IMG/VR virus record: IMGVR_UViG_3300029448_000493
Span: 1 to 22,251 of that record
Direction: 5' to 3' (one strand)
From: a virus
Length of the DNA stretch: 22,251 nucleotides
In this document: positions 213 to 20,392 of the stretch, piece by piece
How the letters are laid out: each line of letters opens with the position of its first letter
Position numbering within the stretch: the first letter of the stretch is position 1
Made by a program: the position numbers and the translations under genes
Notes under the pieces: generated by a model
Seen by the model: the letters and a program-made list of their open reading frames with translations, nothing else
Databases searched by the model: none
Told to the model about the DNA's origin: nothing

Positions 213-941
213 ATGAAATTAATTAAGAGTGGAACGGCATTCACCGTTAAAGGATTCACGTGGGATGCAACCTATAATTACGAAAAATATGAAAGAACTG
301 ATGGAGACGGGCAACGCCTTTACCAGGTCGGAGAATATTCTGTTCCATCAGTTACAACAATCTTATCAAAAACTCAATCCGATGACAAGAGAAAAAAGCT
401 CGATGAATGGAGAGCAAGGGTTGGATATCAAGAAGCTCAAAGAATAACAGTAAAAGCAGCAACACGTGGTACAGAAATGCACTATGTATTAGAGAATTAT
501 ATTAATGGTATTGGTTATCTAAACCTTTCAGAAAAGGGTGCAGAAGCACGGCTCATGGCCCACGAAATTATTAAGGGATTACCAGAACTCACAAAAGTAT
601 ATGGATCAGAAGTTTCATTAGCCTATGAAGATAAGTGGGCAGGATCTACAGACTTAGTATGTGAATATAAAGGTGAACCTACGATACTAGATTTTAAACA
701 ATCTAATAAACCTAAAAAAGAAGAATGGATTGAAGATTACTTTTATCAGATCGCAGCATACTCACTAGCACACAAGAAACAATATGGTGAAATCAAACGG
801 GGTTGTATTGCCATGTGTACTCCAGATTTAGTCTTTCAACGATTTGAGATGACAAATAGCCAATTATTAGAATATGAAGAAAAGTGGTTAGATAGGGTAG
901 AAACGTACCATAAAAAACGCTCTGAGAAGCCTCAGAATTAA
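213..941 (+). CDS. PD-(D/E)XK exonuclease (Cas4/MGME1/RecB-like)
   Basis: A 242-residue nuclease of the RecB/Cas4/MGME1-like PD-(D/E)XK superfamily. The order of motifs is typical: an RG-x3-H motif at residues 85-90 in a helix, Glu133 in a strand, WAGSTDLV with the metal-binding Asp147, the DFK signature with Asp160 and Lys162, and the Q-x3-Y helix motif at Gln179/Tyr183. Enzymes of this family use two metal ions to degrade DNA ends; in phages they usually act in recombination, replication clean-up or host DNA breakdown. All catalytic positions are present, so it should be active. The start lacks a strong ribosome site, but the N-terminus reads as coding. The last 25 bases lie in a 35-bp element that is 77% identical to sequence at 18521-18555. 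Confidence 0.9.
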   Translation: MKLIKSGTAFTVKGFTWDATYNYEKYERTDGDGQRLYQVGEYSVPSVTTILSKTQSDDKRKKLDEWRARVGYQEAQRITVKAATRGTEMHYVLENYINGIGYLNLSEKGAEARLMAHEIIKGLPELTKVYGSEVSLAYEDKWAGSTDLVCEYKGEPTILDFKQSNKPKKEEWIEDYFYQIAAYSLAHKKQYGEIKRGCIAMCTPDLVFQRFEMTNSQLLEYEEKWLDRVETYHKKRSEKPQN

Positions 942-951
942 CGAAACGACC

Positions 952-980
952 TTGACATGACCTCTGATACCTCCTATATT
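952..980 (+). promoter_or_regulatory. sigma70-type promoter
   Basis: A perfect -35 box TTGACA (952-957) is followed after exactly 17 bp by TATATT (975-980), five of six matches to the -10 consensus. It lies just past the exonuclease stop and 35 bp before the first of two mini-genes. It is the best-matched promoter in the window and would be read by host RNA polymerase. Confidence 0.65.
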
Positions 981-1014
981 ATATTGCAGAGCAACATAAA
1001 ACAAGGAGTTTAAA

Positions 1015-1119
1015 ATGTTTCCATCATACACACAAGTAAAAGAATTTTGGACAAACTATTCAGCTAATGTTCAAAAATTCTGGGAAGACTTCTACAAAGA
1101 TCTTTCGAAAAAAAATTAA
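1015..1119 (+). CDS. 34-aa aromatic-rich mini-protein
   Basis: A short frame that starts at an ATG with a strong site (AAGGAG, about 7 nt upstream) and lies 35 bp downstream of the promoter at 952-980. The 34 residues are rich in Phe, Trp, Tyr and Lys, with a heptad-like spacing of aromatics (FW at 11-12 and 23-24, F-Y at 26-27) that would form an amphipathic helix. No signal peptide or known motif is visible. The stop codon overlaps the start of the next gene (TAATG), which indicates translational coupling. The combination of a clean promoter, a strong ribosome site and coupling argues for a real gene. Function unknown; a small inhibitor or membrane-surface peptide is possible. Confidence 0.6.
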   Translation: MFPSYTQVKEFWTNYSANVQKFWEDFYKDLSKKN

Positions 1120-1226
1120 TGACATTTGGTGATGATCCCTTTGGGCACAATAAAAATCTCAGAGGGGTCAAGCCTATAGAATTTTTTATAGCTTTTTTAT
1201 TTGTCTGGTATTTATTAGGACATTAA
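1119..1226 (+). CDS. 35-aa single-pass membrane mini-protein
   Basis: This frame starts one base inside the preceding stop codon (TAATG) and encodes 35 residues. Residues 1-20 are polar, and residues 21-34 form a hydrophobic aromatic segment (EFFIAFLFVWYLLGH) that would insert in the membrane near the C-terminus. It is translationally coupled to the 34-aa gene and shares its promoter. The frame ends directly at the minus-strand terminator of the SNF2 gene. The gene is too short for family assignment; a holin-like or membrane-targeted accessory role is possible but unsupported. Confidence 0.5.
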   Translation: MTFGDDPFGHNKNLRGVKPIEFFIAFLFVWYLLGH

Positions 1227-1256
1227 AAAGCCCCTAAGCAACGTAACCTAGAGGCT
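1225..1256 (-). terminator. rho-independent terminator of the SNF2-like gene
   Basis: Read on the minus strand, AGCCTCTA (1256-1249) pairs with TAGGGGCT (1236-1229) through one G-T wobble, with a 12-nt loop, and is followed directly by a run of five T (1229-1225). It lies about 95 bp past the stop of the minus-strand helicase gene. The plus-strand version has a C-A mismatch and no T tract, so the minus direction is favoured. Confidence 0.6.
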
Positions 1257-1269
1257 CCAAGAAAACACA

Positions 1270-1317
1270 ACAAACTTGTTAAGTTTGTATAGTTAATCAT
1301 ACCCACATGATATGATT
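1270..1317. repeat. two adjacent perfect inverted repeats
   Basis: ACAAACTT (1270-1277) pairs with AAGTTTGT (1281-1288) around a 3-nt loop, and AATCATA (1295-1301) pairs with TATGATT (1311-1317) around CCCACATGA. The second is followed on the plus strand by GTTTTTAC, so it could be a weak plus-strand terminator for the mini-gene operon; otherwise they are transcript-end structures between converging genes. Confidence 0.35.
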
Positions 1318-1351
1318 GTTTTTACATTTTAAAGATATTAAATTTTTAAAA

Positions 1352-2761
1352 TTATTGCAACCATTTTTTTGCTTGTTCCCCTAAAGTTTTTGCACTAAGT
1401 TTGATTTTATTTTTAAGAGCTGAGATAATCATCTCATCTACGGTACCACGTGTAATTAAATCGATAACCAATACGTTTTTAGTTTGTCCAATTCTGTGAG
1501 CTCTGTCTTCACTTTGTTCACGCACTTCCAAATTATAAGAGTTAGAATAATAGACGACATAACTGGCTTTAACCAAATTAAGACCGTAACCGCCAGTAGT
1601 AGGATTGCCCACAAAGAAGCGCACCCTATCATCATTTTCAAATCGTTTGACATTCTCTATCCTTTTCTCAGCATCAATGGAACCATAGATGGCGACTGTA
1701 CTTTCTATGCCATAACGATCTTGAAGAACCTTTATGATTTTTTCAATGTTGTAAATATAATTTGCCCATATTATATACTTTCCTTCATTTTCTTCAATAA
1801 GATTAAGAAGTTCATCTAACTTTGGATCTGCAAACTCAAGTATATTACCATCGTCTGTTTTAACATGACCATTCACACATTGATGTAATTTTAAAATCTC
1901 AGTAAGTTTATTTGAGTAACTGACTTCTTCGTTCTGGATCACGGCCCACGCATTTCTTTTTAATTTGTCATATGCCTTTTGATGCTCATCTTTTAATGTG
2001 ATATAATGTTGCGTATATAATTTTTCAGGTAAATCTAAACACTCAGACTTTCTACAACGATATGAAAACTTTTTTATATTTTGTTCTAATTCTTCTAAGT
2101 TTGTATAGTATTTTGGTAATAGTACAGAACGACCTCCCATATCTATTTCATGCATTACAGCATATCTTGCACGAAATGTATAAAACGATTCGTGCCCTAA
2201 TAGAGATTTATCTAGAAATGCGCACTGACTATATAAATCAAGCGGTGACTTGGTAACAGGAGAACCTGTTAAAATTCTTTTGTAAGCAACACCTTTTCCT
2301 AATTCAATAATATTCTTAGTTCGTTTCGCCGTTCTCGTTTTAATGGTTGTTGCCTCATCAATAATAATCATTGTACGATCTGCTTCTCCTAAAAGTTCTT
2401 TTACTTTTTTTAATCCTGATTTGTGACTCAACGCTTCAACATTGAATAAATACCAAGTTAATTTTAACGGGTCTGCGAATTGCGGGGATAACATGGTATC
2501 TACTTTGTGTGCCATTATTTTATAATCAACACTACAATGCGTTTTAATTTCTTTAATCCAATTTAAATATACAGAGTTCGGTGCAATAACAATTGCATGT
2601 TTTATTTTATTTTGTGTAAATAAATACGCAGCATTATCAATGGTTACTTTTGTTTTACCTGTACCCATTTCCATAAAATATGCGAAGTTCTGTGATTCTG
2701 CACCTTGCTTTAATGCAGTTCTTTGATGCTCAAATGGTTTTGTCTTGTAGTTGTATTTCAT
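1352..2761 (-). CDS. SNF2-like superfamily 2 DNA helicase/translocase
   Basis: A 469-residue SF2 ATPase. Visible motifs in order: an N-terminal Q-like segment (FEHQRTAL, 10-17), Walker A EMGTGKTK (31-38), motif Ia region IVIAPNSV (57-64), Walker B IIIDEAT (132-138), motif III LTGSP (164-168), motif V around TGGYGLNL, and motif VI QSEDRAHRIGQ (416-426). The DEAT box and the DRAHRIGQ motif are hallmarks of the SNF2/RapA branch, which translocates on double-stranded DNA rather than melting long duplexes. Phages use such proteins in recombination, replication restart or transcription remodelling. It is the only minus-strand gene among the replication genes, with its own terminator and a spacer shared with the plus-strand operon. 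No strong ribosome site precedes the ATG. Confidence 0.92.
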   Translation of the reverse strand: MKYNYKTKPFEHQRTALKQGAESQNFAYFMEMGTGKTKVTIDNAAYLFTQNKIKHAIVIAPNSVYLNWIKEIKTHCSVDYKIMAHKVDTMLSPQFADPLKLTWYLFNVEALSHKSGLKKVKELLGEADRTMIIIDEATTIKTRTAKRTKNIIELGKGVAYKRILTGSPVTKSPLDLYSQCAFLDKSLLGHESFYTFRARYAVMHEIDMGGRSVLLPKYYTNLEELEQNIKKFSYRCRKSECLDLPEKLYTQHYITLKDEHQKAYDKLKRNAWAVIQNEEVSYSNKLTEILKLHQCVNGHVKTDDGNILEFADPKLDELLNLIEENEGKYIIWANYIYNIEKIIKVLQDRYGIESTVAIYGSIDAEKRIENVKRFENDDRVRFFVGNPTTGGYGLNLVKASYVVYYSNSYNLEVREQSEDRAHRIGQTKNVLVIDLITRGTVDEMIISALKNKIKLSAKTLGEQAKKWLQ

Positions 2762-2790
2762 GTTTAAACAAAATTCTTTTAAAATAAATC

Positions 2791-2832
2791 TTGCATTAAG
2801 TAAACATTTAAATTATATGATCTCCCAGGAGG
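2791..2832 (+). promoter_or_regulatory. probable promoter and strong RBS of the replication operon
   Basis: The 78-bp spacer between the divergent SNF2 and replication genes holds TTGCAT (2791-2796), 17 bp, then TATATG (2814-2819): a moderate sigma70-like match. It is followed by a perfect AGGAGG (2827-2832), 7 nt before the ATG at 2840. The ribosome site is certain; the promoter is likely from position rather than match quality. Confidence 0.45.
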
Positions 2833-2839
2833 TTCTAAT

Positions 2840-3385
2840 ATGGACTTAGAAGCAGAGTCGACCATAACGGTTGATACGGCGAAATCTGCGGATATCGCCC
2901 AAACATGCAATAAGCTTTTGGAAACTCAGAAAGAAATAAAAATGGCGGAAGATAAAATAAAGACGCTAAAAGAAACAGAACGAAATCTTTCTGATAATAT
3001 CATTCCAAACTTAATGCGTGAAGCAGGCCTAAGCTTGCTTAAACTCACGGATGGAAGTCAGGTAGAAGTTAAACCTTACTACCAAGCTAACATCACAGAG
3101 TCATTTAAAGAACGTGCTCACAATTGGTTACGTGAGAACGGTTTTGGTGACTTAATAAAAAACAACATCACTCTTGAATTCGGAAAAGGTCAAGATGAAC
3201 AAGCACAATCTGTAATCAGAGAAGCCCAAGAAAAAGGCTACAATGTGAAACAGAAAGAAGGTGTTCATTGGGCAACTTTACGTACGTTTGTTAGAGAACA
3301 AATTCAAGAAGGCAAACAAGTCCCTAATGACATGTTTGGTGTGTATGTTGCAAATCGAGTAACCATTAAGAAGGAGGACAATTAA
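2840..3385 (+). CDS. conserved-looking phage protein, first gene of replication operon (181 aa)
   Basis: A 181-residue protein with the strongest ribosome site in the operon. Residues 25-55 are a charged heptad-like helix, probably a coiled coil, followed by a compact alpha/beta part (about 60-181) with a KLTDGSQVEVKPYYQANI stretch, which looks like a small beta-sheet, and a C-terminal FGVYVANRVTIK strand. No catalytic motif or metal site is visible. It directly precedes and overlaps by one base the SSB-like gene, so a DNA-binding, SSB-partner or nuclease-inhibitor (Gam-like) role is possible. The coiled coil followed by a globular domain is compatible with Gam, but I see no decisive signature and leave the function open. 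Confidence 0.85.
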   Translation: MDLEAESTITVDTAKSADIAQTCNKLLETQKEIKMAEDKIKTLKETERNLSDNIIPNLMREAGLSLLKLTDGSQVEVKPYYQANITESFKERAHNWLRENGFGDLIKNNITLEFGKGQDEQAQSVIREAQEKGYNVKQKEGVHWATLRTFVREQIQEGKQVPNDMFGVYVANRVTIKKEDN

Positions 3386-4185
3386 TGTCTAAAGAAGTAG
3401 TAAAGAAAAAAGAAGCACAAGTTCCAGCTAAGATGGATCTTGAGGCTTTATCAGGACAAGGAACTGAGAACATTGGAACTAAAGATACAAGGTTACCTAT
3501 CCTAAAAATTCTTTATGCTAGTAACGTTTTACTAGATGAAGATGAAGCAAACTATAATGCGAAAGCTAAAGAAGGTGATTGCTATAATGAAATCACTGGG
3601 TCTTTGTATAAATCCAAAGAAGGCTTCTTAGCTGTACCATGTCATTATAATAATACTTTTAACGAATGGGCAGATAGAGGAGAAGGAACAGGAAGACCTG
3701 TTGCAATCCATACTGATCCAACCGTGATGAGTAAAACAACTAAAGCAGATGATGGTAAGGACAGAACTAAAGAAGGAACTTACATCGAGGATACTGGAAA
3801 TCATTTCGTTTATATTTTAAATGAAAATTATGAACCAGTTGAAATGGCTTTAATTCCAATGAAGTCAACGCAAAAGAAAAAATCTAAGTTATGGAACTCA
3901 ATGATAATCTCTAGAAAAATAAAAGGTTCTAAAGGTTTATTTAATCCACCAGCTTGGTCTCAAGTATATAGAATAAAAACTACGAAAGAGTCTAATAGCA
4001 ATAATAAGTGGTGGGGTTGGGTAATTGAATTTGATTCAATCTTAGACACTACAAAACACTTAGATGCTTTACAATCAGCAAAAGCTTTTTATGAACAATC
4101 AAACAAAGATAATGCGTTTGATAAAGTAGCGTTTGAAGAAGATAAAGCAGAGAAAAAAGTAAACGATCAAGAAACTCCGTTTTAA
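3385..4185 (+). CDS. probable single-stranded DNA-binding protein (SSB-like)
   Basis: A 266-residue protein started by AAGGAGG 8 nt upstream of ATG. The central part (about 40-225) is rich in aromatic and basic residues, with strand-like segments (FLAVPCHYNNTFNEW, HFVYILN, WWGWVIEFDSI), as expected for an OB-like DNA-binding fold. The C-terminus after residue 240 is acidic and disordered and ends in Glu-Thr-Pro-Phe, like the acidic tip ending in Pro-Phe of bacterial SSB or the Phe-ending tail of T7 gp2.5, which recruits replication partners. Its place just before the primase, helicase and polymerase fits a fork SSB. Assignment rests on tail, composition and context rather than on a recognised domain signature. 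Its TAA overlaps the primase ATG (TAATG). Confidence 0.7.
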   Translation: MSKEVVKKKEAQVPAKMDLEALSGQGTENIGTKDTRLPILKILYASNVLLDEDEANYNAKAKEGDCYNEITGSLYKSKEGFLAVPCHYNNTFNEWADRGEGTGRPVAIHTDPTVMSKTTKADDGKDRTKEGTYIEDTGNHFVYILNENYEPVEMALIPMKSTQKKKSKLWNSMIISRKIKGSKGLFNPPAWSQVYRIKTTKESNSNNKWWGWVIEFDSILDTTKHLDALQSAKAFYEQSNKDNAFDKVAFEEDKAEKKVNDQETPF

Positions 4186-5762
4186 TGCATCGTAAATTAC
4201 TTGAGTTGTTTGAAGGCGACTCGGGTCAATTCATCAAGGTCACCTTAACGGGTGACCAAGATGAACGTGGCAAGAGAAAAGCTGACTACACCACGCTTCA
4301 CGAACCTGTAACAGAAGACTTATGGAAGGGTCATCTGGACGGTAAGTATGTTATGGGTTTAAGACCCGAACGTGAAGGTAAAATGAAATGGGGTTGTATA
4401 GATGTCGACCCACAAAGTTATAAAGATTACAGTTCAAAAAAATATATTGATATTATAAAAAATAATAAATTACCTTTAATACCAGTAAGATCAAAATCGG
4501 GTGGCTTACATATTTTTGTTTTCTTCAAAGATTGGGAAGATAAAAAAGAAGCTTTAAAAGTTTTACATAAATGGAATGAAGATTACTTCATGGCTAATGA
4601 AGTCTTTCCAATGAACAAAGCATTAGGAATGCCATACTTTAATGCAAAGATGACAACTGAGTTTGCATACAATGATGATGGTACACCAATCATGCTAGAA
4701 GCATTTTTAGAATTAGCAGAACAAAAAAGAACAACTCTAGAACAAATACAAAAATTTAAAGATACAAAATATGAACCTGAAGATAGTTGGAGAGATTATC
4801 CTCCTTGTGTTCAAAAGATGATACAAGAAAAATGGTCGGGTAATCATAGAAATGATTTTCTTTTTAATGTTTTAGTTCTTGAATCTAAAAAGAATGAAAA
4901 TTTAACTATTGAAGAACTGATTGAAATTGGAAGAAAAAGAAATACAGAAATATTTGCAACACCACTTCCTGAAAGAGAAGTTATAACTACAGCTAAGTCA
5001 GTTAAGAAAGGTGGTTACTTTTATAAATGTCCACCAAAGCTAAACGCAATTACCCCATTATGTAATAAAGAATTATGTAAGAATAGAACACTTGGTATTT
5101 TTCAAGAAACACCTGCAATGATAGATGAGTTTGAAGATGTGATGTTTATCAGAGATATTAAAGAATCATTTTATAGATTTAAATATCAAGACGAAGAGAT
5201 TATGGTCAAACCAGAAGATCTTGCATCAGAATTAAATTTTAAAAAGAAATTATTAAATTACAAAATACTTTGGAAAACTTTACCAAGAAGAAAAAATATT
5301 AATGTATGGGATTTATTTTTAGATGCACTTGTAAAGAAAGCATCAGAGTCAGATGATTTTAATTATCAAGAAACTTTAGAAGATATGAGATACCAAACTC
5401 TTAAAGAATTTTTTGAAGATACCATTGAACAAGATGATTTTCAAAAACTTAAAGATGGATATGTAGTATTAGATTCAAAAACAAATGTTTGTTATTTTAA
5501 AAGAACAACTTTAGATAATTGGATGAAAAAGAAAATGAATAAAGCATTTAACAATTCAATGGAAGCTTTGCGATTATTAAATTGTAAACGATTAGAATAC
5601 CATGAAGGTGAAAAGAATATCTGGGCAGTAGATATGCCAGAGTTTATTAATCACCAAGCAGTAAAGAAAAATAAATCTAAACCAAAAAATGAAGTGTCGG
5701 AGATGGATGATGACTATCACACAGGAAAATTCAGAGATTCAAAACCTAAAGCAACTTCATAA
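4185..5762 (+). CDS. archaeo-eukaryotic-type (AEP) DNA primase with PriL-like Cys domain
   Basis: A 525-residue primase. The N-terminal AEP catalytic domain (about 1-180) shows the DxD metal motif in CIDVD (Asp73, Asp75) and the nucleotide-binding S-x-H motif in SKSGGLH (103-109), as in the TOTE/PrimPol-like AEP clade. After it, residues 204-305 hold four spaced cysteines (Cys207, Cys281, Cys292, Cys297) in a helical context with PPC, SGNHRNDF and KCPPKL-x9-C-x4-C, which resembles the iron-sulfur or zinc domain of primase large subunits (PriL). The remaining 220 residues are of unknown fold. Fusing catalytic and accessory primase functions in one chain is known in mobile elements; metal type is inferred. 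The gene has no clear ribosome site and depends on TAATG coupling to the SSB gene. Confidence 0.85.
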   Translation: MHRKLLELFEGDSGQFIKVTLTGDQDERGKRKADYTTLHEPVTEDLWKGHLDGKYVMGLRPEREGKMKWGCIDVDPQSYKDYSSKKYIDIIKNNKLPLIPVRSKSGGLHIFVFFKDWEDKKEALKVLHKWNEDYFMANEVFPMNKALGMPYFNAKMTTEFAYNDDGTPIMLEAFLELAEQKRTTLEQIQKFKDTKYEPEDSWRDYPPCVQKMIQEKWSGNHRNDFLFNVLVLESKKNENLTIEELIEIGRKRNTEIFATPLPEREVITTAKSVKKGGYFYKCPPKLNAITPLCNKELCKNRTLGIFQETPAMIDEFEDVMFIRDIKESFYRFKYQDEEIMVKPEDLASELNFKKKLLNYKILWKTLPRRKNINVWDLFLDALVKKASESDDFNYQETLEDMRYQTLKEFFEDTIEQDDFQKLKDGYVVLDSKTNVCYFKRTTLDNWMKKKMNKAFNNSMEALRLLNCKRLEYHEGEKNIWAVDMPEFINHQAVKKNKSKPKNEVSEMDDDYHTGKFRDSKPKATS

Positions 5763-7573: not shown

Positions 7574-7712
7574 AAAGAAAAAAGGCGGTTGGAGCCGAAC
7601 TCTTGCAAGAAAAAAATTAAACAAAATTACATTATATGGTCATTATTTATGGTGCAAAAAAGAAGGGAGAGATACAAGTTGGTATGAGTCTACAACTCGC
7701 AATGAATTTTAA
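7563..7712 (+). CDS. 49-aa basic mini-protein overlapping polymerase start
   Basis: An open frame of 49 residues that starts inside the end of the DUF3310 gene and runs over the start of the polymerase gene in another frame. It is strongly basic at the N-terminus (MKNKKKKGGW), then aromatic (LYGHYLWC, SWYE). No strong ribosome site is present, so it would rely on coupling to the DUF3310 gene. Its existence would close the otherwise untranslated gap between 7573 and the polymerase start, which is why I list it. It could bind nucleic acid because of its charge. It could also be chance. Confidence 0.45.
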   Translation: MKNKKKKGGWSRTLARKKLNKITLYGHYLWCKKEGRDTSWYESTTRNEF

Positions 7713-9552
7713 AAAGAATATGTGGAATGCACCAAATGAATTTAAAGATTTAACTGGTTACAATGAAATCGCAATTGATTTAGAAACCAAAGATGATGGT
7801 ATCAGCCAAGGACTTGGTGCAGGTTGGGCATCAGGACGAGGAGAGATTATTGGATTTGCTGTGGCCGTAGAAGGCTGGCAAGGTTATTTTCCTTTTGGTC
7901 ATTATGGTGGAGGAAACTTAATTCCTGAACAAGTTAAAAAATATATGAAAGATGTTTGTAGTTTACCTGCAACTAAAATATTTCATAACGCTCAATACGA
8001 TGTTGGTTGGCTTAAAGCATTAGGGATCGAAGTTAAAGGCCAGATTGTGGATACGATGGTTGCTGCTGCACTAATTAATGAAAATCGTTGGAGTTACTCT
8101 TTAAATGCATTGTCCGTTGATTATCTTGGTGAGATTAAAGCTGAGACAGATTTAAAAGAAGCCGCAGCGGCTCATGGTGTGGATCCAAAAGCAGAGATGT
8201 GGAAGTTACCTGCTGAACATGTTGGACACTATGCGGAACAAGATGCACGGCTCACGCTCCTTCTATGGCAAAGATTTAAAGCAGAGATTAGAACTCAAAG
8301 CTTAGAAACCATATGGAAACTAGAATCTGATCTTTTACCTATTTTAATTGAAATGAGATTTAATGGAATTAATGTTAACTTAGAAAAAGCTGAAGCATTA
8401 AAATTAGAATTTGCGGAACAAGAAAAGCACTTACTCCACAAAATAAAACAATTAGCAGGCCGAGACATAGATATTTGGGCAGCACGTCAGATTGGAGAAG
8501 CTTTTGATAAACTTGGTATAGATTATCCAAGAACACAGAAAACAGGCGAGCCATCATTTACACAAAATTTTTTGTTTAATTCCCCTCATGAAATTTCTAA
8601 ATTAATTGTCCAAGCTAGAGAAGTCAATAAATTTCATAACACATTCTTAACTGGAATTACTAAATATCAACACAAAGGAAAAATTCATGCGGAAATCAAT
8701 CAACTACGTTCTGATTCTGGCGGTACTGTTTCTGGTCGTCTCAGCATGTCAAACCCGAACTTACAACAACTCCCAGCAAGGAACAAAGAATTTGCACCGA
8801 AAATTCGTGGTCTATTTATGCCAACAACAAATTGTAAGTGGGGTTCATTTGATTATTCGCAGCAAGAACCAAGATTGGTCGTGCACTACGCTTCTTCGAT
8901 CGGAGAAGGCTATGAAGGATCTCAAGAACTTGTGGAAGCTTATGCGAATGCTTCAGCCGACTTTCACCAAACTGTAGCCGATCTTGTTGGTATTGATCGT
9001 AAGGCCGCTAAAACGATTGGCCTGGGACTTATGTATGGAATGGGTAAAAATAAATTAGCAAATTCACTTGGACTTGAAAGAGAAGAGGGAGATAAAATTA
9101 TTGCAAAGTATAATCGTAAAGTTCCTTTCGTAAAATTATTAAGTGATCGTTGCATGAAGAAAGCTGATGAAGAAGGAGTGATAAGAACAAAGCTTGGCCG
9201 TAAGTGTCGTTTTGAAGAATGGGAGCCAAGAGATTGGGGTTTATGGACAAGTGAAACTTTTGAAAATGCGGTTGCTAAATACGGTCGTGGTAATATTAAA
9301 AGAGCCAAAACTTACAAAGCACTTAATAGATTAATTCAAGGATCGGCAGCCGATCAAACTAAACTTGCAATCGTAGAATGTTATAAACAAGGTTATATTC
9401 CAAAACTACAAATCCATGATGAATTATGTTTTGATGTAGAAACAGAAGAAGATGAAAAAAATATTAAACAAATCATGGAACAAGCTTTAGAACTTAAAGT
9501 TCCAAGTGTTGTTGATGTAGCGATTGGTGATAACTGGGGTGAAACATCGTAA
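7684..9552 (+). CDS. polA: family A DNA polymerase with 3'-5' exonuclease, Leu762 type
   Basis: A PolA of about 622 residues with a DEDDy proofreading domain and polymerase domain, without a 5' nuclease domain. Numbered from the ATG at 7684: exo I IAIDLE (29-34), exo II HNAQYD (101-106), exo III HYAEQD (182-187); polymerase motif A DYSQQEPR (390-397), motif B RKAAKTIGLGLMYG (439-452) and motif C IHDE (577-580). Exonuclease and polymerase metal ligands are all present. The position equal to E. coli Phe762 is Leu (codon 9022-9024), a variant common in marine virioplankton. The frame is open to ATG 7636; I prefer 7684 because GGGAG (7665-7669) precedes it, while 7702 matches the usual family N-terminus. 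Replicates the phage genome with the primase and helicase upstream. Confidence 0.95.
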   Translation: MSLQLAMNFKKNMWNAPNEFKDLTGYNEIAIDLETKDDGISQGLGAGWASGRGEIIGFAVAVEGWQGYFPFGHYGGGNLIPEQVKKYMKDVCSLPATKIFHNAQYDVGWLKALGIEVKGQIVDTMVAAALINENRWSYSLNALSVDYLGEIKAETDLKEAAAAHGVDPKAEMWKLPAEHVGHYAEQDARLTLLLWQRFKAEIRTQSLETIWKLESDLLPILIEMRFNGINVNLEKAEALKLEFAEQEKHLLHKIKQLAGRDIDIWAARQIGEAFDKLGIDYPRTQKTGEPSFTQNFLFNSPHEISKLIVQAREVNKFHNTFLTGITKYQHKGKIHAEINQLRSDSGGTVSGRLSMSNPNLQQLPARNKEFAPKIRGLFMPTTNCKWGSFDYSQQEPRLVVHYASSIGEGYEGSQELVEAYANASADFHQTVADLVGIDRKAAKTIGLGLMYGMGKNKLANSLGLEREEGDKIIAKYNRKVPFVKLLSDRCMKKADEEGVIRTKLGRKCRFEEWEPRDWGLWTSETFENAVAKYGRGNIKRAKTYKALNRLIQGSAADQTKLAIVECYKQGYIPKLQIHDELCFDVETEEDEKNIKQIMEQALELKVPSVVDVAIGDNWGETS

Positions 9553-9724
9553 TCATAAATGTTTTAAATGTGGGAGAACTGCTCACGTTATCGATAATGA
9601 AATGTATTTTTGTGCAGATTGTATGCTCAAGATTTTAAAGAGACAAGAATACCGTCACGGGAAACCCGATCCACGGCTCACGCACCACAAAAGTTATACG
9701 CTAGGAAGCGTAATTAGGAATTAA
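9539..9724 (+). CDS. small zinc-ribbon protein (61 aa)
   Basis: Overlaps the polymerase gene by 14 bp. I choose the GTG at 9539 because GGTGAT (9526-9531), a good complement to the 16S tail, lies 7 nt upstream; TTG 9524 and GTG 9527 are also open. The N-terminal half holds two knuckles, CFKCGR and CADCML, which together make a four-Cys zinc ribbon, followed by a basic tail with several His. Single zinc ribbons next to phage polymerases often act as DNA-binding or clamp-like accessory proteins, but function here is inferred. The tail is encoded by a copy of the CACGGCTCACG motif (9672-9682), with rare GC-rich codons. Confidence 0.7.
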   Translation: MKHRNHKCFKCGRTAHVIDNEMYFCADCMLKILKRQEYRHGKPDPRLTHHKSYTLGSVIRN

Positions 9725-10436: not shown

Positions 10437-10634
10437 ATGGATATCAATAAATGGAAATCTGTAGCTGTTAGAATTCAAGACTACAATATTTTAAAAGCGA
10501 TTTCTAAAAATAAATTTAGAGCGCCCGCTTCTATGATCTCAAAATTAGTTGACGATTATGTAGAATTCCAAGCAAAGAAGATGAAAGTTTCTAAAGATTC
10601 TTTTGTAAAAAAACTTCTCAATGGCAAGTCTTAA
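10437..10634 (+). CDS. ribbon-helix-helix (Arc/CopG-like) DNA-binding regulator
   Basis: A 65-residue protein with AAGGAG 5 nt upstream of ATG. The pattern is that of a ribbon-helix-helix domain: a short strand (WKSVAVRIQ, 6-14), then helix A (DYNILKAISKNK, 15-26), a turn, and helix B (ASMISKLVDDYVEFQAKK, 31-48), followed by a basic tail. RHH proteins bind DNA as dimers through the strand, so the dyad 20 bp upstream is the likely target. It opens a four-gene plus operon of small genes (10437-11431). A small transcription regulator of the middle genes is the best guess. Confidence 0.7.
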   Translation: MDINKWKSVAVRIQDYNILKAISKNKFRAPASMISKLVDDYVEFQAKKMKVSKDSFVKKLLNGKS

Positions 10635-11431: not shown

Positions 11432-11659
11432 AGGAGAACGAGTCACCTCTACCCTATGTTTAAACAACTTTTCTGAAAGGGAGTAGTTGAAATAACTACT
11501 ACAAAAAGAAAATTAGCACGAGTATTGAACTAATGCAAGATTTGATTTACAAGGGTAGTAGAGCTCCCCAACTGCTACTACCCTCTCTCTAGAGCCTCGT
11601 ACGAGGGCATTTAGACTCTCAGTTCACCCAATTATGAACTTGTGCCGTCCAATCACGGC
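11426..11659. other. dense cluster of perfect inverted repeats, possible structured RNA
   Basis: A gene-free, relatively GC-rich stretch between converging operons. In order: GGGTAGAGG/CCTCTACCC (11426-11434/11446-11454), AGTAGTT/AACTACT (11482-11500), AGGGTAGTAG/CTACTACCCT (11552-11561/11575-11584), the palindrome CCTCGTACGAGG (11595-11606), AGTTCA/TGAACT (11621-11640) and GCCGT/ACGGC (11644-11659). The first three stems share a GTAG core and could exchange partners. None has a proper T tract, so these are not simple terminators. It could be a small RNA, a switch-like 3' structure or a protein-binding site. I see no open frame with a ribosome site and no tRNA cloverleaf. Confidence 0.5.
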
Positions 11660-11785
11660 TCACGAGCCTAAAACTTGTAATATCATGACACAGGTTAAAC
11701 CTAACCCTGCGATTAAAAAATACGCAAACCAATGTTCTGGTTTTGGTTTTTTACACAATATAATTCTTTTTAATAAATCTTTCAT
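11660..11785 (-). CDS. 41-aa single-pass membrane protein
   Basis: The ATG overlaps the stop of the gene before it in an ATGA arrangement (11782-11785), so it is translationally coupled. Residues 1-18 are basic (KDLLKRIILCKKPKPEH) and residues 19-40 form a clear membrane helix (WFAYFLIAGLGLTCVMILQV); positive-inside topology puts the N-terminus in the cytoplasm. Its TGA stop lies inside a CACGGCTCACG repeat. A holin-like or membrane-targeting role is possible. It is the last gene of the minus operon starting at 12741. Confidence 0.6.
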   Translation of the reverse strand: MKDLLKRIILCKKPKPEHWFAYFLIAGLGLTCVMILQVLGS

Positions 11786-13126: not shown

Positions 13127-13164
13127 AAGCGTGAGTCGGGGTCATAGAATCACGGCTCACGCTT
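13127..13164. terminator. strong 12-bp hairpin at convergent gene ends
   Basis: AAGCGTGAGTCG (13127-13138) pairs with CGGCTCACGCTT (13153-13164) through 12 pairs with one T-G wobble and a 14-nt loop. It lies between the acidic-protein gene (plus) and the end of the 114-aa gene (minus), so it can act as a two-way transcript end, though it lacks a T tract on either strand. The right arm is a CACGGCTCACG motif and contains the TGA stop of the 114-aa gene. Confidence 0.45.
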
Positions 13165-13501
13165 GTTTAGGAAATTGTACGATATTATTTTTTTTCTTAA
13201 AAATTCTTTCATTGTCTTTTGGAACACGACCCACGACCCCATAACTATTTAACAACATACAATCGACTAAGCCAACGGGGTAAACTTTTCTTACAAAACA
13301 AGTACGCATTTCATCATAGAGCCAATACACACCCTCGCTTTCAGTTCTTAGTTTAATATTCTTATCTCCCTCATAAAAATATGCAATCAATTCAGGATCA
13401 CTCATTTTTTGAAAATCGCTAGTAAAAAAAATATGGTTTTGATGATAAGTATTTTCTCCGTCCTGTACCTCAAATTTTACCATTGTAAATTTTTTGCTCA
13501 T
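13157..13501 (-). CDS. 114-aa protein of unknown function
   Basis: A 114-residue beta-rich protein (MSKKFTMVKFEVQDGENTY, NHIFFTSDFQ, GVYWLYDEMRTCFVRKVYPV) with many aromatic residues, probably a small globular fold. The ATG overlaps the preceding gene's stop (ATGA) and has GAGGA upstream, so translation is coupled. The stop codon is embedded in the right arm of the 13127-13164 hairpin. The gene covers a perfect heptad pair CACGACC-CACGACC at 13225-13238. No family recognised. Confidence 0.65.
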   Translation of the reverse strand: MSKKFTMVKFEVQDGENTYHQNHIFFTSDFQKMSDPELIAYFYEGDKNIKLRTESEGVYWLYDEMRTCFVRKVYPVGLVDCMLLNSYGVVGRVPKDNERIFKKKNNIVQFPKQA

Positions 13502-13659: not shown

Positions 13660-13720
13660 TATTTTCCTTTCATTGTTGTTTTAGTACCCGTGAGCCGTGA
13701 AACATGGTCAAAAGGATATA

Positions 13721-13816
13721 ATGAAAAAACTTAACATTAACCACGAGCCACGAACCACGGGTCTAGGCAACTCCACGCCAACGCAACTGTTGGTGTACCT
13801 AGTGTCCTATATATAA
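13721..13816 (+). CDS. 31-aa mini-protein across heptamer repeats
   Basis: The ATG lies 5 nt after an AAAGGA ribosome site. The frame reads a basic and polar start (MKKLNINHEPRTTG), then STPTQLLVYLVSYI, an amphipathic or membrane-seeking helix. The frame includes the three tandem 7-bp repeats (13741-13761) and the long hairpin (13763-13802), so part of its sequence may be forced by DNA structure instead of protein function. The ribosome site and Gln-Leu-Leu-rich helix make it plausible; it is short enough to be chance. Confidence 0.4.
   Translation: MKKLNINHEPRTTGLGNSTPTQLLVYLVSYI
13741..13802. repeat. three tandem 7-bp repeats plus imperfect hairpin
   Basis: CCACGAG, CCACGAA and CCACGGG follow each other without gaps (13741-13761). 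Directly after, CTAGG (13763-13767) and ACGCCAAC (13775-13782) pair with GTTGGTGT (13789-13796) and CCTAG (13798-13802), forming a two-part stem with an asymmetric internal loop. A reverse-strand copy of the same motif lies 50 bp upstream (13689-13699). The layout resembles iterons beside the AT-rich region that follows. Confidence 0.55.
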
Positions 13817-14266
13817 TGGGACAAATCTGAAAGTCAAGTCAAATTCTAAGCGTAACTAAGAAAAAATTCCTAGTTTCCTGAAAATTAGGAAAGCAAAATA
13901 AAACTGGGAAGAAATAACCCGCATAAAACCTCACTTTTCCTAAAAGTACCCCCTATAAGGGCGTTTTCCCCACAAAATTTTTTTTAAAAAATTTTTTTAT
14001 GGGGAAATTTCTGGGAAACTGGGAAAAATCGGCTAGAATCCGCATAAACATTGGCTTTTTTGCCAAAAAAAACTAGGAAAAAACTAGGAATTTTTCCTAA
14101 AAAATAGGAAAGTGTTTAAAATCAATAACTTATTTGGCTATTTTTTTAAAAAGTCAATAAAATCAATAATAATATTAAATTTTATATAAGGACTAAAATC
14201 TCAAAACAATTTTTTTATTTTTTTTATTTATATTATTTTTTGCTTTATAGGGTGGTATTATATCTT
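13817..14266. other. AT-rich repeat region, candidate replication origin
   Basis: About 450 bp without a credible gene. It contains eight copies of TAGGAA or its complement (from 13867 to 14112), two spaced 11 bp apart (14073, 14084) and some in perfect inverted pairs (TAGGAAtttTTCCTA, 14085-14099). A two-part direct repeat, AAACTGGGAA then CCGCATAAA, occurs at 13901-13928 and again at 14017-14048. TTTCCCCA and TGGGGAAA (about 13965-14007) close an almost pure A/T block that would melt easily. AATCAATAA-like units follow (14120-14170). Repeats plus an AT-rich melting block are typical of origins; regulatory use before terS is also possible. Confidence 0.5.
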
Positions 14267-16231: not shown

Positions 16232-17215
16232 ATGACTAAAACAAAAAAAATAACTTTAAATGCTCAAAAAAGAAAATTAGCATTAAAAGTTTTTGAAAAT
16301 GATCTTCAAACTGAAGATAACATTTTAAAAGATGAATATTTAAAAGCAAAAAAACAATGTGATGTACATATTGAAAACGCTTTTAAAACCGCAAAACAAG
16401 TTGTTGAGCGAAAATACCCGTCTGAAACTATTAAAACATTAAAAGAGATACAGACAAAATATGATTTAAATGTTTGTAGACCTGATAGTTGTTTTAATTT
16501 TCAAAGCGATCAAACTGAAGAGCATACAGACTGGAATGGCACTGTTTCACAAGTTCCAAAACAAAAACATATTAGTTTTAAATTAACAGGAACTTTAAAT
16601 GGTGAAAATCAATATGGGAGTGAAAGTAGTGAATTTGCTTTTGCTTATTATCATAACCATTTAAGAAATTTAGGATTTACACCTAATGTTTACGTTCTTA
16701 AAGGGGAAAAAGATGATAACCCGCATCACTCAAAACTGATTGAAGAAAATAACGACCAACTTGGAATATACTCGCATAGAAATACACAAGCGGGCGTTTC
16801 CGAAAAATGGAATAAAGATTATTCTTTAACAGTTATTTCACAACATAGTCATTGCTCATCTCGTTATATTGAGTGTACGCAAGATGAACTCGATATAATG
16901 AATGATATGTTAATTGCAAAACAAAAAGTTGTTCAAACTTATAATGAGTGGCAATCTAATATATTAGAGCGTAAAAACTTAATTGAGCAAACTTTGAAAT
17001 CTTACAAGTATTTTGATGAACTCAAAAAACTTGCAGATAATCAAAATGTTGAAATAAAGGAAAATGACATTGAAATGCACTCAAGTGAATTATCAATTTA
17101 TAATCCTGATAATGTTTCAGCTATGCTTGATAATTTAAAACCCAAAACTAAAGAAACGAGAGCGGAAAAGATTGCAAGAATTACAGCATTAAATAGCGGG
17201 GTCGCTAATGCCTAA
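16232..17215 (+). CDS. 327-aa protein of unknown function (accessory island)
   Basis: I start at ATG 16232 because AAAGGG (16221-16226) lies 5 nt upstream and the promoter occupies the extended frame. The 327 residues consist of an N-terminal Lys/Glu-rich coiled coil (1-80), a central strand-rich part with CRPDSCFNF, KHISFKLTG, EFAFAYYHNHLRN, HSHCSSRYIECTQDE (several Cys and His, a possible metal site), and a C-terminal helical part with KPKTKETRAEKIARITAL. This layout could be a metal-binding domain between coiled coils. I do not recognise a family. It overlaps by 8 bp the Cys-rich gene that follows; both share one promoter and one terminator and are likely to act together. Confidence 0.75.
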   Translation: MTKTKKITLNAQKRKLALKVFENDLQTEDNILKDEYLKAKKQCDVHIENAFKTAKQVVERKYPSETIKTLKEIQTKYDLNVCRPDSCFNFQSDQTEEHTDWNGTVSQVPKQKHISFKLTGTLNGENQYGSESSEFAFAYYHNHLRNLGFTPNVYVLKGEKDDNPHHSKLIEENNDQLGIYSHRNTQAGVSEKWNKDYSLTVISQHSHCSSRYIECTQDELDIMNDMLIAKQKVVQTYNEWQSNILERKNLIEQTLKSYKYFDELKKLADNQNVEIKENDIEMHSSELSIYNPDNVSAMLDNLKPKTKETRAEKIARITALNSGVANA

Positions 17216-17528: not shown

Positions 17529-17549
17529 ATTATTTAATTTTCAAAAATT

Positions 17550-17580
17550 AAGGGCGGAATTAAAAAACCGCCCTTTTTTT
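17550..17580 (+). terminator. strong rho-independent terminator
   Basis: AAGGGCGG (17550-17557) pairs with CCGCCCTT (17568-17575), with a 10-nt loop, followed by seven T. It lies 22 bp beyond the stop of the two-gene operon at 16232-17528. Confidence 0.85.
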
Positions 17581-17602
17581 ATTTTTTATTTAAAAAAAAT
17601 CT

Positions 17603-17629
17603 CTCTCAGACGCTCAAATTTTAACGAAA
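17603..17629. repeat. 27-bp direct repeat, copy 1
   Basis: Begins CTCTCAGACGCTCAAA and ends TTTTAACGAAA, identical over 27 bp to 18524-18550 in the same orientation. The pair bounds the three-gene minus cassette. The flanking TTTTAGG and GATAC words are also shared. Confidence 0.85.
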
Positions 17630-17665
17630 TTAATTTTTAGGATACTTAGTAAGGGGGGATTTTAT

Positions 17666-17685
17666 GCCCCACTAAAAAGCGGGGC
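17666..17685 (-). terminator. hairpin after the minus cassette
   Basis: GCCCC (17666-17670) pairs with GGGGC (17681-17685), and on the minus strand the stem extends through a C-G pair and a wobble (GCCCCGC/GTGGGGC). ATTTTAT and ATAAAAT flank it. It lies just past the stop at 17693 and probably ends the minus-strand transcript, though the T tract is poor. Confidence 0.45.
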
Positions 17686-17692
17686 AATAAAA

Positions 17693-17905
17693 TTATTTTT
17701 TTAATATTTCTCTTATTTGATTAAAAGCGTTTCTTAATTTTGCGACTTGATCGGGTGTCTTATTTTTTAAGCTACTTTCAAGTAAAGCAATATTTAAAAA
17801 ACTTTGCATTGTTTCATTTAGTTGAAAAAAATTATTATTTAATTTTTTTAACTCATGATCTATATTTTCAATTGAACTTGAAATTATATCATCATATTGT
17901 CCCAT
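17693..17905 (-). CDS. 70-aa helical protein, cassette gene 3
   Basis: The ATG has AGGAGGT 9 nt upstream, the best ribosome site in the island. The 70 residues are helical (SSSIENIDHELKKLNNNFF, ETMQSFLNIALLESSLK, DQVAKLRNAFNQIREILKK) with heptad spacing, so it should be a coiled coil or helical bundle. No membrane segment or catalytic motif is seen. Last gene of the minus cassette between the 27-bp repeats. Function unknown; the layout (short all-helical protein) would fit an inhibitor or antidote. Confidence 0.65.
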   Translation of the reverse strand: MGQYDDIISSSIENIDHELKKLNNNFFQLNETMQSFLNIALLESSLKNKTPDQVAKLRNAFNQIREILKK

Positions 17906-17930
17906 AACTAATTACCTCCTCTCTTGTCTG

Positions 17931-18164
17931 TTATTCTTTATTCCAAATTTTTTCGAAATTTTCATTAAATTCATGAAAATTTGAATCTTCAAAAGCTGAA
18001 TAAGTTGTTTTAAAAATTTTGTTACCGTCCCATTTAAAAAATTGAGATATTAAAATTCCTAAAACTTCTTCATCAGTTATTTTTTGCGGTTCATTAAAAA
18101 ACTCAATTTTTTTTTCTTCAATCAAATTTTTTAATCTTTTATTTATTATCCTTTCATTTTTCAT
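17931..18164 (-). CDS. 77-aa acidic/aromatic protein, cassette gene 2
   Basis: AAAGGA lies 9 nt before the ATG. The 77 residues start with a basic helix (NERIINKRLKNLIEEKK) and go on to an acidic, Phe-rich part (EVLGILISQFFKWDG, FEDSNFHEFNENFEKIW). The codon use is extremely AT-rich, as in both neighbours. No known motif. It is spaced 6 bp after gene 1 and 25 bp before gene 3. Confidence 0.6.
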   Translation of the reverse strand: MKNERIINKRLKNLIEEKKIEFFNEPQKITDEEVLGILISQFFKWDGNKIFKTTYSAFEDSNFHEFNENFEKIWNKE

Positions 18165-18170
18165 TTTTAA

Positions 18171-18449
18171 TTATCCTTTGTTAAGTTGATTTAAAACAAA
18201 TTCAGCATTATCAATATTTGTAAAAAATTTATAATGTTTACCAAAATTCATAACTTTTTTATGATAATAAATATTATCAATTGTATGTTTAAAATTTTGA
18301 TCTGAACTTGTTAGCCCTTTATTTATAAATCTAATAAAATCTAAAAGACTTATAAATTCGATTTTCGGTTTTTTTAGATCAAAGTTAATATAATAAATTT
18401 TCATATTATTTTTTGATCTACCCCAAAAAACATTGTTTCGTTTTTTCAT
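18171..18449 (-). CDS. 92-aa basic protein, cassette gene 1
   Basis: The frame starts at ATG 18449 without a ribosome site; an internal Met at residue 16 is an alternative. The product is basic and aromatic (MKKRNNVFWGRSKNN, MKIYYINFDLKKPKIEFISL, KVMNFGKHYKFFTNIDNAEF) and likely a small alpha/beta domain. On the minus strand a perfect TTGACA (18485-18480) lies 31 bp upstream of the ATG with a poor -10. No family recognised. Confidence 0.55.
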   Translation of the reverse strand: MKKRNNVFWGRSKNNMKIYYINFDLKKPKIEFISLLDFIRFINKGLTSSDQNFKHTIDNIYYHKKVMNFGKHYKFFTNIDNAEFVLNQLNKG

Positions 18450-18523
18450 AAGTTAATAAGTAGTGGGATTTTATGAGATTGTCAAATATAAGCATTTTTT
18501 CAAATTTCAGCGAAAAAAAAACG

Positions 18524-18550
18524 CTCTCAGACGCTCAAATTTTAACGAAA
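18524..18550. repeat. 27-bp direct repeat, copy 2
   Basis: Second exact copy of the 17603-17629 repeat. The surrounding 35 bp (18521-18555) are 27/35 identical, without gaps, to 917-951 at the end of the exonuclease gene, including a shared 14-bp TTAACGAAACGACC end. That third copy directly precedes the best promoter in the window. Confidence 0.8.
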
Positions 18551-18621
18551 CGACCCTTTTAGGTACTAGGATACCCCCCAAAATTAAAGCTAAAAATACC
18601 CGTCTTATTATATCTTATTAT

Positions 18622-18649
18622 TTGACATATATAAAAAAATCGCTATTTT
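18622..18649 (+). promoter_or_regulatory. promoter of the ArdC-like gene
   Basis: A perfect TTGACA (18622-18627), then TATTTT (18644-18649) after 16 bp, 39 bp before the ATG. ATTATATCTTAT lies just upstream (18607-18618), as at 16148. The leader TAACTGAAAGG before the ATG is also shared with the 16232 gene. Confidence 0.5.
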
Positions 18650-18687
18650 GTGTTTATGTTTAAATTTAACTTAACTGAAAGGTAAAA

Positions 18688-19641
18688 ATGATAAACAGTA
18701 AAATAACTAAAGATGCTCTTTTATCAGTTGGTAGACAGATTGCGGCTGGACTAGAGCAAGACGGCTTAAAATGGATTAAGCCTTTTGCAAGTCAATCACT
18801 TGCTAATTGTCCAAAAAATGCAATTACTGGATATGAATATAGCGGTGTCAATTTTTGGAATTTAAGCTTTATTCAAGTTCAAAATAAATTTGATTTTCCG
18901 CTTTTTGCATCAAAAAACGCTTGGGCAAAAGTTGGGGCTACTATTAAACCCGATCAAGTAAAAAATGGATTTCCTATTTTTTATTGGTGGCAAGCAAAAG
19001 TAAAATATAAAAAACCTGAAAATGAAGAGCAAGACAGCTATTCAAGATGGTTTTTAAAAATTACTTGGGCATATAATCCCGATCAATTAGATTTAACTAA
19101 TTCGACTTGGACATATCCAAAAGTTGAAAATACGCCAGTTAATAAAGTTAAGGACAATATGGCGGTTTTTAATTTTGTTGATAATCAAAAAGGGTTAGTT
19201 TTAAAGCATAGCGATCAACCCCGTTGTTATTATGCCCCTGAATTGGATTATATTCATATGACTAGCAAGATTAATTTTAAAGGAAAAAAATCTTGTGCTA
19301 GTTTTGAATATTACTCAACTTTGCTACATGAGTTAATCCACTGGTCGGGACATAAAACTAGAACTGGACGTTTTGAAAAAAACTTAAAATTCTTTAAAGA
19401 CAATAGACGTAAAGAATACGCTTTAGAAGAATTAATCGCTGAGATCGGGGCTAATTTACTTTGCATTAAATTTGATATGCAAAAAAAAGTAAATAAGAAC
19501 TCATTAGCTTATTTAAAGTCTTGGATTAAAGCTTTAAAAAATGATGATGTTTTTATCTATAAAGCATTGTCCCAAAGTGCAGGGGCTATTGATTTTTTAA
19601 AGAAAAACTTAAAAGAAAATAAAGCCGTTAAAACAGCTTAA
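18688..19641 (+). CDS. ArdC-like antirestriction protein with zincin domain
   Basis: A 317-residue protein with AAAGG 5 nt before the ATG. The N-terminal half (about 5-135) matches the ArdC single-stranded DNA-binding domain: W-rich KPFASQSLANCPKNAITGYEYSG (residues 31-53, partly quoted), NFWNLSF, FPLFASKNAWAKVGATIKP, and IFYWW. The C-terminal half is a zincin-like metallopeptidase with HELIHWSGH (His214, Glu215, His218, His222) and the downstream EELIAEIGA helix (Glu247-Glu252) that offers the third zinc ligand. In plasmids, ArdC protects incoming DNA from restriction; here it may guard phage DNA at entry or cleave a host defence protein. It stands alone between a promoter and a strong terminator. 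Both domains look intact. Confidence 0.85.
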   Translation: MINSKITKDALLSVGRQIAAGLEQDGLKWIKPFASQSLANCPKNAITGYEYSGVNFWNLSFIQVQNKFDFPLFASKNAWAKVGATIKPDQVKNGFPIFYWWQAKVKYKKPENEEQDSYSRWFLKITWAYNPDQLDLTNSTWTYPKVENTPVNKVKDNMAVFNFVDNQKGLVLKHSDQPRCYYAPELDYIHMTSKINFKGKKSCASFEYYSTLLHELIHWSGHKTRTGRFEKNLKFFKDNRRKEYALEELIAEIGANLLCIKFDMQKKVNKNSLAYLKSWIKALKNDDVFIYKALSQSAGAIDFLKKNLKENKAVKTA

Positions 19642-19662
19642 AAAATACATAAATTAATAATT

Positions 19663-19690
19663 AAAGGCGGGTAAAATCCCGCCTTTTTTT
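19663..19690 (+). terminator. strong rho-independent terminator
   Basis: AAAGGCGGG (19663-19671) pairs with CCCGCCTTT (19678-19686) through 9 bp around a TAAAAT loop and is followed by a seven-T run (19684-19690). It ends the ArdC-like transcript. Confidence 0.85.
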
Positions 19691-19753
19691 ATGCCTGATG
19701 TAAAAATTTCAAGTGATTTAAAATCACCTTTTAAAATGATAAAAGACTTTTAA
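19691..19753 (+). CDS. 20-aa possible leader peptide
   Basis: The frame ATG at 19691 directly follows the terminator and reads a 20-residue peptide (MPDVKISSDLKSPFKMIKDF) whose TAA overlaps the next ATG (TAATG). There is no ribosome site, and any transcript must start after the terminator. It is listed only because it would couple to the nuclease gene. Confidence 0.2.
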   Translation: MPDVKISSDLKSPFKMIKDF

Positions 19754-20127
19754 TGAAGAGTGAAAATCAATTTTATAAATGGATTAAAACCAACTCAAAT
19801 AATATTTATTTATGCAAAATAGAGCATAGTTTATCAATTGGAATACCCGATATTTTAGCGGTTATTAATAACAAAACAGTATTTATTGAATTAAAAATAA
19901 ATGCCACTAATTCACCTGAAAAAATAGGATTAAATAAATTTCAAAACGCCTGGCATATCAAATTTAATAGGTCAGGTGGACAAGCTTTTATCTTAGTTAA
20001 TAGGCTCAAACAAAGTAGTCTTGAACTTTTTAGGCGTGGGGCTGGGGGATTTTCGCACATAATCACGCAACCAAAGACACGGGACGGGCTACAAAATATT
20101 TTTACAGCGATAAAAAATACAAAATAA
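19753..20127 (+). CDS. VRR-NUC-like PD-(D/E)XK nuclease
   Basis: A 124-residue nuclease. Motifs in order: an N-terminal helix with Glu4 and Trp10, HSLSIGIPDILAVI with the G-x-PD signature (Asp33), FIELKIN with Glu46 and Lys48, then NKFQNAWH with Gln64, and a final hydrophobic strand AFILVN. This is the layout of small VRR-NUC/Holliday-junction-resolvase-like enzymes found on phages, which cut branched DNA. All catalytic residues are present. It could resolve replication or packaging intermediates before terL acts. The C-terminal GC-richer stretch (20030-20090) differs from the island's base use. Confidence 0.8.
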   Translation: MKSENQFYKWIKTNSNNIYLCKIEHSLSIGIPDILAVINNKTVFIELKINATNSPEKIGLNKFQNAWHIKFNRSGGQAFILVNRLKQSSLELFRRGAGGFSHIITQPKTRDGLQNIFTAIKNTK

Positions 20128-20392
20128 ATTCACATATTTTCTAATAAGTAATAATCATCAATTATCACTTACAATTTATTCTTATAAATTCACGTGGGGC
20201 GTGGGGTTTTACCATAGCCCAACGCCCGAAGGCTCAATACTCAATCGGAAATAGTTTTTACAAATTCCTAGAAAATCACGGAAAAATAATATAAAATATA
20301 ATCAGATATGTGTGTGTACGTAAGTTACTTACACGTAAGCAAGGAAATAACATTTGAAAAAAATTTTATAAAATTTTAAAACTTTAAGGTTC
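20128..20392. promoter_or_regulatory. intergenic region upstream of terL with repeats
   Basis: No gene is seen. It holds an 11-bp near-perfect stem TAAGTAATAAT/ATTATCACTTA (20145-20171), a tandem CGTGGGG-CGTGGGG (20193-20206, the reverse-strand form of the window's CACG heptads), a TG run at 20309-20317, and three alternating half-sites GTAAG, CTTAC, GTAAG (20320-20339), which form a perfect GTAAGT-T-ACTTAC dyad. This looks like a binding site for a regulator or for packaging proteins. A clean promoter is not visible. A short AAGG lies only 3 nt before the terL ATG. Confidence 0.4.

Follow-up and report, generated by a model that had tools for sequence, protein, structure and literature searches.

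The DNA studied here is the 22.25 kb IMG/VR virus record IMGVR_UViG_3300029448_000493, and the whole of this stretch is called the window below. It is a fragment, the left arm, of a pelagiphage of the HTVC023P type, and its DNA polymerase A (PolA) has 72% identity to PolA of Pelagibacter phage HTVC023P. Viruses of this type make up a very abundant group in the ocean. The window carries genes for a PD-(D/E)XK nuclease, an SNF2 helicase, proteins like gp33 and gp34 of Pam3, a primase of the archaeo-eukaryotic primase (AEP) type, a UvrD helicase and PolA; further right there are small genes, then the small terminase gene (TerS), and the large terminase gene (TerL) lies at the right edge. Scattered over these genes and the spacers between them are short repeats built on CACG, and one small gene encodes a protein of 65 amino acids (aa) with a predicted ribbon-helix-helix (RHH) fold, our candidate for the protein that binds them (Table 1).

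Are these repeats more than a chance feature of the sequence? An earlier note on this DNA had listed an 11-mer and related units in a 7-bp phase and had called them far beyond chance; all its coordinates were correct on re-check. The conserved unit is not the 11-mer. It is the heptad CACGNNN, with NNY preferred, and CACGGCTCACG is merely its commonest pair. At a start spacing of 7 bp there are 11 CACG pairs in the window, while the other spacings from 4 to 39 give 0-3 each, and no other phased tetramer in the window gives a signal as strong as CACG at 7. With up to 2 mismatches the 11-mer has 13 matches against 0.68 expected, a number reached by 0 of 100 dinucleotide shuffles. Shuffled sequences as rich in the motif would have spoken against the claim, and none were seen: in 1000 runs that preserved proteins and codons, CACG-N3-CACG pairs averaged 0.12 with a maximum of 2 against the 11 observed, and the exact 11-mer averaged 0.04 against 5. 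The repeats are thus real and not due to chance. The heptads also extend beyond the pair. In 120 de-duplicated contexts, weaker CANG heptads stand in phase beside the core (13 at -14, 31 at -7 and 20 at +14, against 1.0 out of phase), and because they keep the phase, a site is best described as a short heptad run with a two-heptad core.

Table 1. Heptad sites and the candidate binder gene in the window (positions in nucleotides of the window)
Feature	Position	Strand	Heptad starts or exact copy	Context
Three-heptad site CACGGCT-CATGGCC-CACG	547..564	+	547/554/561 (middle unit CATG)	In PD-(D/E)XK nuclease gene 213-941; relatives have sites at other codons of the gene
Two-heptad site CACGGCC-CACG	1940..1950	+	1940/1947	Antisense in SNF2-type helicase gene (1352-2761, minus); same residue in L006, L008, L094
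Two-heptad site CACGCTT-CACG	4292..4302	+	4292/4299	Codon 36 of AEP-type primase gene 4185-5762
Two-heptad site CACGGCT-CACG	8246..8256	+	exact 11-mer	Codon 204 of DNA polymerase A, 7636-9552
Two-heptad site CACGGCT-CACG	9672..9682	+	exact 11-mer	In small zinc-ribbon-like open reading frame after polA, 9524-9724
Candidate binder, 65-aa protein with predicted RHH fold (MDINKWKSVAV...)	10437..10634	+		Homologs in relatives
Two-heptad site CACGGCT-CACG	11654..11664	+	exact 11-mer	Spacer between converging genes; matching site in L006
Two-heptad site CACGGCT-CACG	13151..13161	+	exact 11-mer	3' end of minus gene 13157-13501
Two-heptad site CACGACC-CACG	13225..13235	+	13225/13232	Antisense in gene 13157-13501
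Two-heptad operator-like site	13689..13699	-	exact 11-mer	29 nt upstream of Shine-Dalgarno-led leftward start codon (13659), downstream of TTGACC
Three-heptad array CACGAGC-CACGAAC-CACG	13742..13759	+	13742/13749/13756	Divergent partner of the 13689 site
Two-heptad site CACGCCC-CACG	20193..20203	-	20193/20200 (reversed)	Upstream of terL; orientation opposes the majority

The relatives show what is being kept. The scans of relatives were based on proteins and patterns, and all locus totals given here are lower bounds. In 80 IMG/VR loci fetched with the window polymerase, CACG pairs at spacing 7 number 199, where control spacings give 1.9, and they are present in 73 of the 80; HTVC023P itself has 9 such pairs, 7 of them within its first 30 kb. 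The site at PolA codon 204 is kept in 61 of the 80 genes, where codon usage would give 0.05, and it ranks 1 of 593 four-codon windows by codon conservation; in a larger set it is found in 82 of 135. The site at primase codon 36 is kept in 43 of 55 primases (43 of 56 in the locus count), where codon usage would give 0.13. Its first residue may be T, L, I, R, F, S, A, Y or V, and the final C of that codon is present in 43 of 43. The sequences are related and the events behind these counts are not independent, and it is the comparison with codon usage that counts. The sites are kept across relatives, and the earlier claim that DNA rather than protein is conserved holds: selection acts on the DNA of the sites and not on the encoded protein, which is strongly supported. 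Even the protein differs with the site. Site-bearing polymerases read DARLT, and those of the HTVC027P type and of the more distant KWKSVLLP lineage have DAELT at the same place. In the latter lineage PolA is mostly DAELT or DAEIT without the site; instead, 41 loci have a site at UvrD codon 470 and 15 have one at primase codon 41. Heptad sites turn over, yet they remain within the same stretch of the genome.

Is there any direction in the placement of the sites? Of the sites in the pelagiphage loci, 191 run with the polymerase-sense strand against 15 that run the opposite way, and most of the 18 longer records have the same bias. Within genes on the opposite strand that are supported by homology, one being the SNF2 gene of the window, the sites keep the genome strand in every case (13 of 13 for pelagiphages, 21 of 21 for the KWKSVLLP lineage), some of these loci being close relatives. 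Because the genome strand is kept there, an RNA element acting at the mRNA level is rejected, and a simple orientation rule set gene by gene is disfavoured. A search of Rfam for an RNA element gave no match at the gathering threshold.

Which protein would read these sites? The 65-aa protein is predicted to be an RHH protein of the CopG/Arc-like kind. Its AlphaFold2 single-chain model has helices at residues 13-26 and 30-48 after an N-terminal strand, and in Foldseek against the PDB its top matches are RHH proteins only (CopASO, MatP, CopG and Arc; probability up to 0.99), with weak E-values, above 0.1, such as one would expect of so small a protein. The sequence itself falls below the Pfam cut-offs, the homolog in locus L257 is above that of RHH_5, and a PDB sequence search with the RHH protein gave chance matches only. 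Homologs occur in at least about 60 of the polymerase-seeded loci and in HTVC023P, where the protein is gp13. In loci fetched with this protein, CACG at spacing 7 was again the strongest tetramer (137 against 1.9). Starting from DNA only, a scan of viral contigs for four CACG heptads found genes for small RHH proteins starting with D-x-x-K-[WY]-[KR]-[SN] in 16 of 120 loci, while the reversed pattern led to none in 112 loci, with a Fisher probability of 2e-5 that is optimistic since some loci are near-duplicates. From this evidence we infer that the 65-aa protein binds the heptads; of the options in the earlier note, that of protein-binding sites is well supported, with this protein as the candidate binder. 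The same DNA-only scan returned plain CACG heptad tandems in many GC-rich phages without this RHH protein, which we set aside as a different phenomenon. Many phages of varied GC, with no KWKSV-type RHH detected nearby, have long simple tandems of CACG heptads; they are among loci L159-L278 (e.g. L177, L180, L204, L249 and L259). KWKSV-type RHH genes were also seen in contigs of bacterial metagenome-assembled genomes (Maricaulis, Pirellulaceae and others; L547-L552), which are probably phage contigs, with 1-4 CACG pairs each.

The type of heptad goes with the type of RHH protein. CACG at spacing 7 exceeds its control spacings 103-, 77- and 14-fold in the KWKSV families and stands at 0.7-fold in HTVC027P-type loci, while CAAGC at spacing 7 is 33-fold over control in HTVC027P-type loci and about 0 in the KWKSV families. 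Phage HTVC027P has a diverged RHH protein (gp21, KYKSLAV), no CACG pairs, and CAAGC heptads instead. The 80 loci fetched with the HTVC027P-type protein contain 412 CAAGC pairs (control 12) and 3 CACG pairs (control 4). By profile comparison the three RHH families are homologous, with E-values of 4e-8 and 5e-10. Note that the replication and packaging core (polymerase, primase, helicase) is common to all these lineages, and because of this the heptad switch is effectively one event within a family and not many independent ones. A recognition code of one residue was not found, for KYR proteins are seen with either heptad, CACG or CAAGC.

Some of the sites point to transcription. In HTVC027P the CAAGC arrays run straight into TTGACA boxes (-35), with three heptads at gp34 and six at gp33, and in an infection time course of this phage the extra temporal cluster 2 consists of gp33 and gp34 only, high at 6-9 h (PMC12753301). 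At 16499-16747 of HTVC027P (L089) the annotated gp32 overlaps CAAGC arrays; the array may be regulatory DNA, and the gene call should be read with caution. The window's own minus-strand site, at 13689, keeps its distance to the start codon in relatives (+29 in L006 and +25 in L093). Of the eleven listed sites, four are in the reported cluster at 13.1-13.8 kb, including the divergent pair (13689 on the minus and 13742 on the plus strand).

These observations make it rather probable, by analogy with known regulators, that an RHH regulator uses the repeats as operators and as dispersed sites, in an omega-like and possibly stoperator-like manner. The phage-encoded RHH protein would bind one dimer per 7-bp CACGNNN heptad, two adjacent heptads would form a cooperative site of high affinity, and weaker heptads would add to it on the flanks. 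The intergenic hub sites (13.69-13.76 kb) would be classical operators. The scattered one-way pairs in replication genes would be secondary sites, and we infer that they most likely act as polar blocks to rightward transcription by host RNA polymerase, which would give a timely shut-off of the early genes and the replication genes. A polar block on the main rightward transcription would explain the single strand throughout, even across minus-strand genes.

Several results weigh against this account of an RHH regulator. The shared core means that another co-diverging protein, e.g. TerS, could be the binder. The homolog in 023Pt_psg01 (L088; 10602-10778, KYKSL start) stands in a genome with no 7-bp heptads detected, where either the sites were lost or the motif was missed. 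A Foldseek search with the model of the HTVC027P-type protein gave no RHH fold match, and it is through profile comparison that this protein is linked to the others. Near sigma70-like promoters the CACG pairs show no enrichment (27 against 48 expected), by which the in-gene sites are rejected as ordinary promoter operators. Moreover, a simple per-gene stoperator model does not predict that site orientation ignores the gene strand.

How do the sites compare with known systems? Omega (ParB-pSM) of plasmid pSM19035 places one RHH dimer on each 7-bp heptad at promoters; a single heptad is bound weakly and two together strongly (PMC9499535). Its WATCACW heptads are unspaced and asymmetric, direct or inverted, and are read by a small RHH protein, as the candidate here would do; the 7-bp tandem phase is present here as well. 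However, the promoter arrays of omega comprise 7-10 heptads and omega serves partition together with ParA, while here mostly isolated in-gene pairs are found on one strand. A ParA (delta) partner (PF13614) gave no match in 19 phage records, which are possibly incomplete, while control genomes matched; a partition system is rejected. In cluster A mycobacteriophages, stoperators bound by the L5 repressor halt elongation in one orientation only (PMC9283540). They are asymmetric sites dispersed over the phage genome with a strong orientation bias and are accompanied by true operators (PMC9283540), and dispersed asymmetric sites with strand bias are also what we find. A stoperator is a 13-mer to which a monomer with helix-turn-helix (HTH) and stoperator domains binds, while here there are heptads and an RHH candidate in place of the HTH/stoperator-domain repressor of a temperate phage. 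Stoperators lie at promoters and in short intergenic gaps and follow the local direction of transcription, while the sites here lie within coding sequence and follow the genome strand. Stoperator phages are temperate, and no tyrosine integrase (PF00589) was found in the 19 records, for which lysogeny is rejected. Because there is no ParA, no integrase and a different orientation rule, we do not claim membership in the omega or stoperator family. CopG and Arc share the RHH fold, the small size and the role of phage or plasmid repressor, here predicted; they act at a single operator or a few and are not known to form a dispersed network.

If the RHH protein binds the heptads, does it have to block transcription? 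It may organise or mark the genome, by looping or condensing it, recruiting machinery, or guiding packaging or replication, and this is the main rival, which we consider unlikely. MatP, one of the top fold matches, is an RHH protein with dispersed genomic sites (matS) that plays this part at the E. coli terminus, polarity is independent of gene strand in all cases (13/13 and 21/21), and the sites lie inside genes and away from promoters. But matS is palindromic and belongs to a cellular chromosome, while the sites here are tandem direct heptads in a phage; in HTVC027P the arrays directly adjoin the promoters of two genes that share an expression cluster, the window has a divergent operator-like hub, and ParA is not matched in the 19 records. 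It is less probable still that another phage protein, the small terminase or a replication protein, binds the sites while the RHH protein just travels along. The core genes common to all lineages would allow this, and TerS adjoins the 13.1-13.8 kb cluster and differs between CACG and CAAGC lineages. Against it, binding at a 7-bp tandem pitch is known for RHH proteins (PMC9499535), the CAAGC arrays are at promoters, and many sites are distant from any pac or origin region.

Strong strand bias, in-gene location and the presence of PD-(D/E)XK and UvrD genes would fit Chi-like or other polar signals for recombination or repair, read by the phage nuclease and helicase. This is very improbable, for the sites are too few (about 2-16 per record), are fixed at exact codons, have a 7-bp tandem structure with flanking heptads, and cluster at divergent intergenic regions. 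The least credible alternative is a functionless heptanucleotide repeat, mobile or made by slippage. Heptamers of the short tandemly repeated repetitive (STRR) kind are known in cyanobacteria, and simple CACG heptad tandems occur in many GC-rich phages without this RHH protein. It is strongly disfavoured by the codon-level data, with codon positions conserved against codon usage. Polarity, a fixed CACG with a variable N3 and a lineage-specific switch to CAAGC also speak against it. The mobile short repeat proposed earlier is likewise disfavoured, since dozens of diverged phages have sites at an identical codon and in one strand orientation. Nor are the iterons suggested at that time supported. 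The sites are mostly isolated pairs over 20 kb, in polymerase, primase and SNF2 helicase genes, and no Rep protein was found among the open reading frames scanned with Pfam, so that clustered repeats beside a Rep gene are not seen.

Some other features of the window should be noticed. An AT-rich palindrome, TTTTCCCCACAAAATTTTTTTTAAAAAATTTTTTTATGGGGAAA, lies at 13964-14007 in the long spacer that precedes TerS and may be a hairpin, a terminator or origin-like. A second dispersed repeat of ~63-73 nt (CGCTCTCAGACGCTCAAATTTTAACGAAACGACC...) has three diverged copies in or near spacers (912-974, 17574-17646 and 18516-18578), and the two copies tested gave no convincing match in Rfam. The gene at 18688-19641 has ArdC N-terminal and zincin-like metallopeptidase domains and possibly encodes an anti-restriction protein.

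No earlier description of the heptads or of RHH regulators in pelagiphages was found in the open-licence papers searched. The components are of known kinds, while their combination (an RHH protein with dispersed, in-gene, polar sites and a lineage-specific heptad) appears to be new. More tentatively, a minimal RHH protein may be a genome-wide polar regulator in HTVC023P-like phages, with pairs in the codons of essential replication genes as one-way roadblocks or genome-organising marks, and with a CACG/CAAGC alphabet that would have co-evolved with the RHH protein into lineage-specific regulatory specificities. The sites are a clear natural case in which DNA-binding sites in essential genes prevail over the choice of codon and even over which amino acid is encoded. 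With one candidate regulator that has a readable DNA code, and with its sites selected in coding sequence, the control of these phages becomes directly testable.

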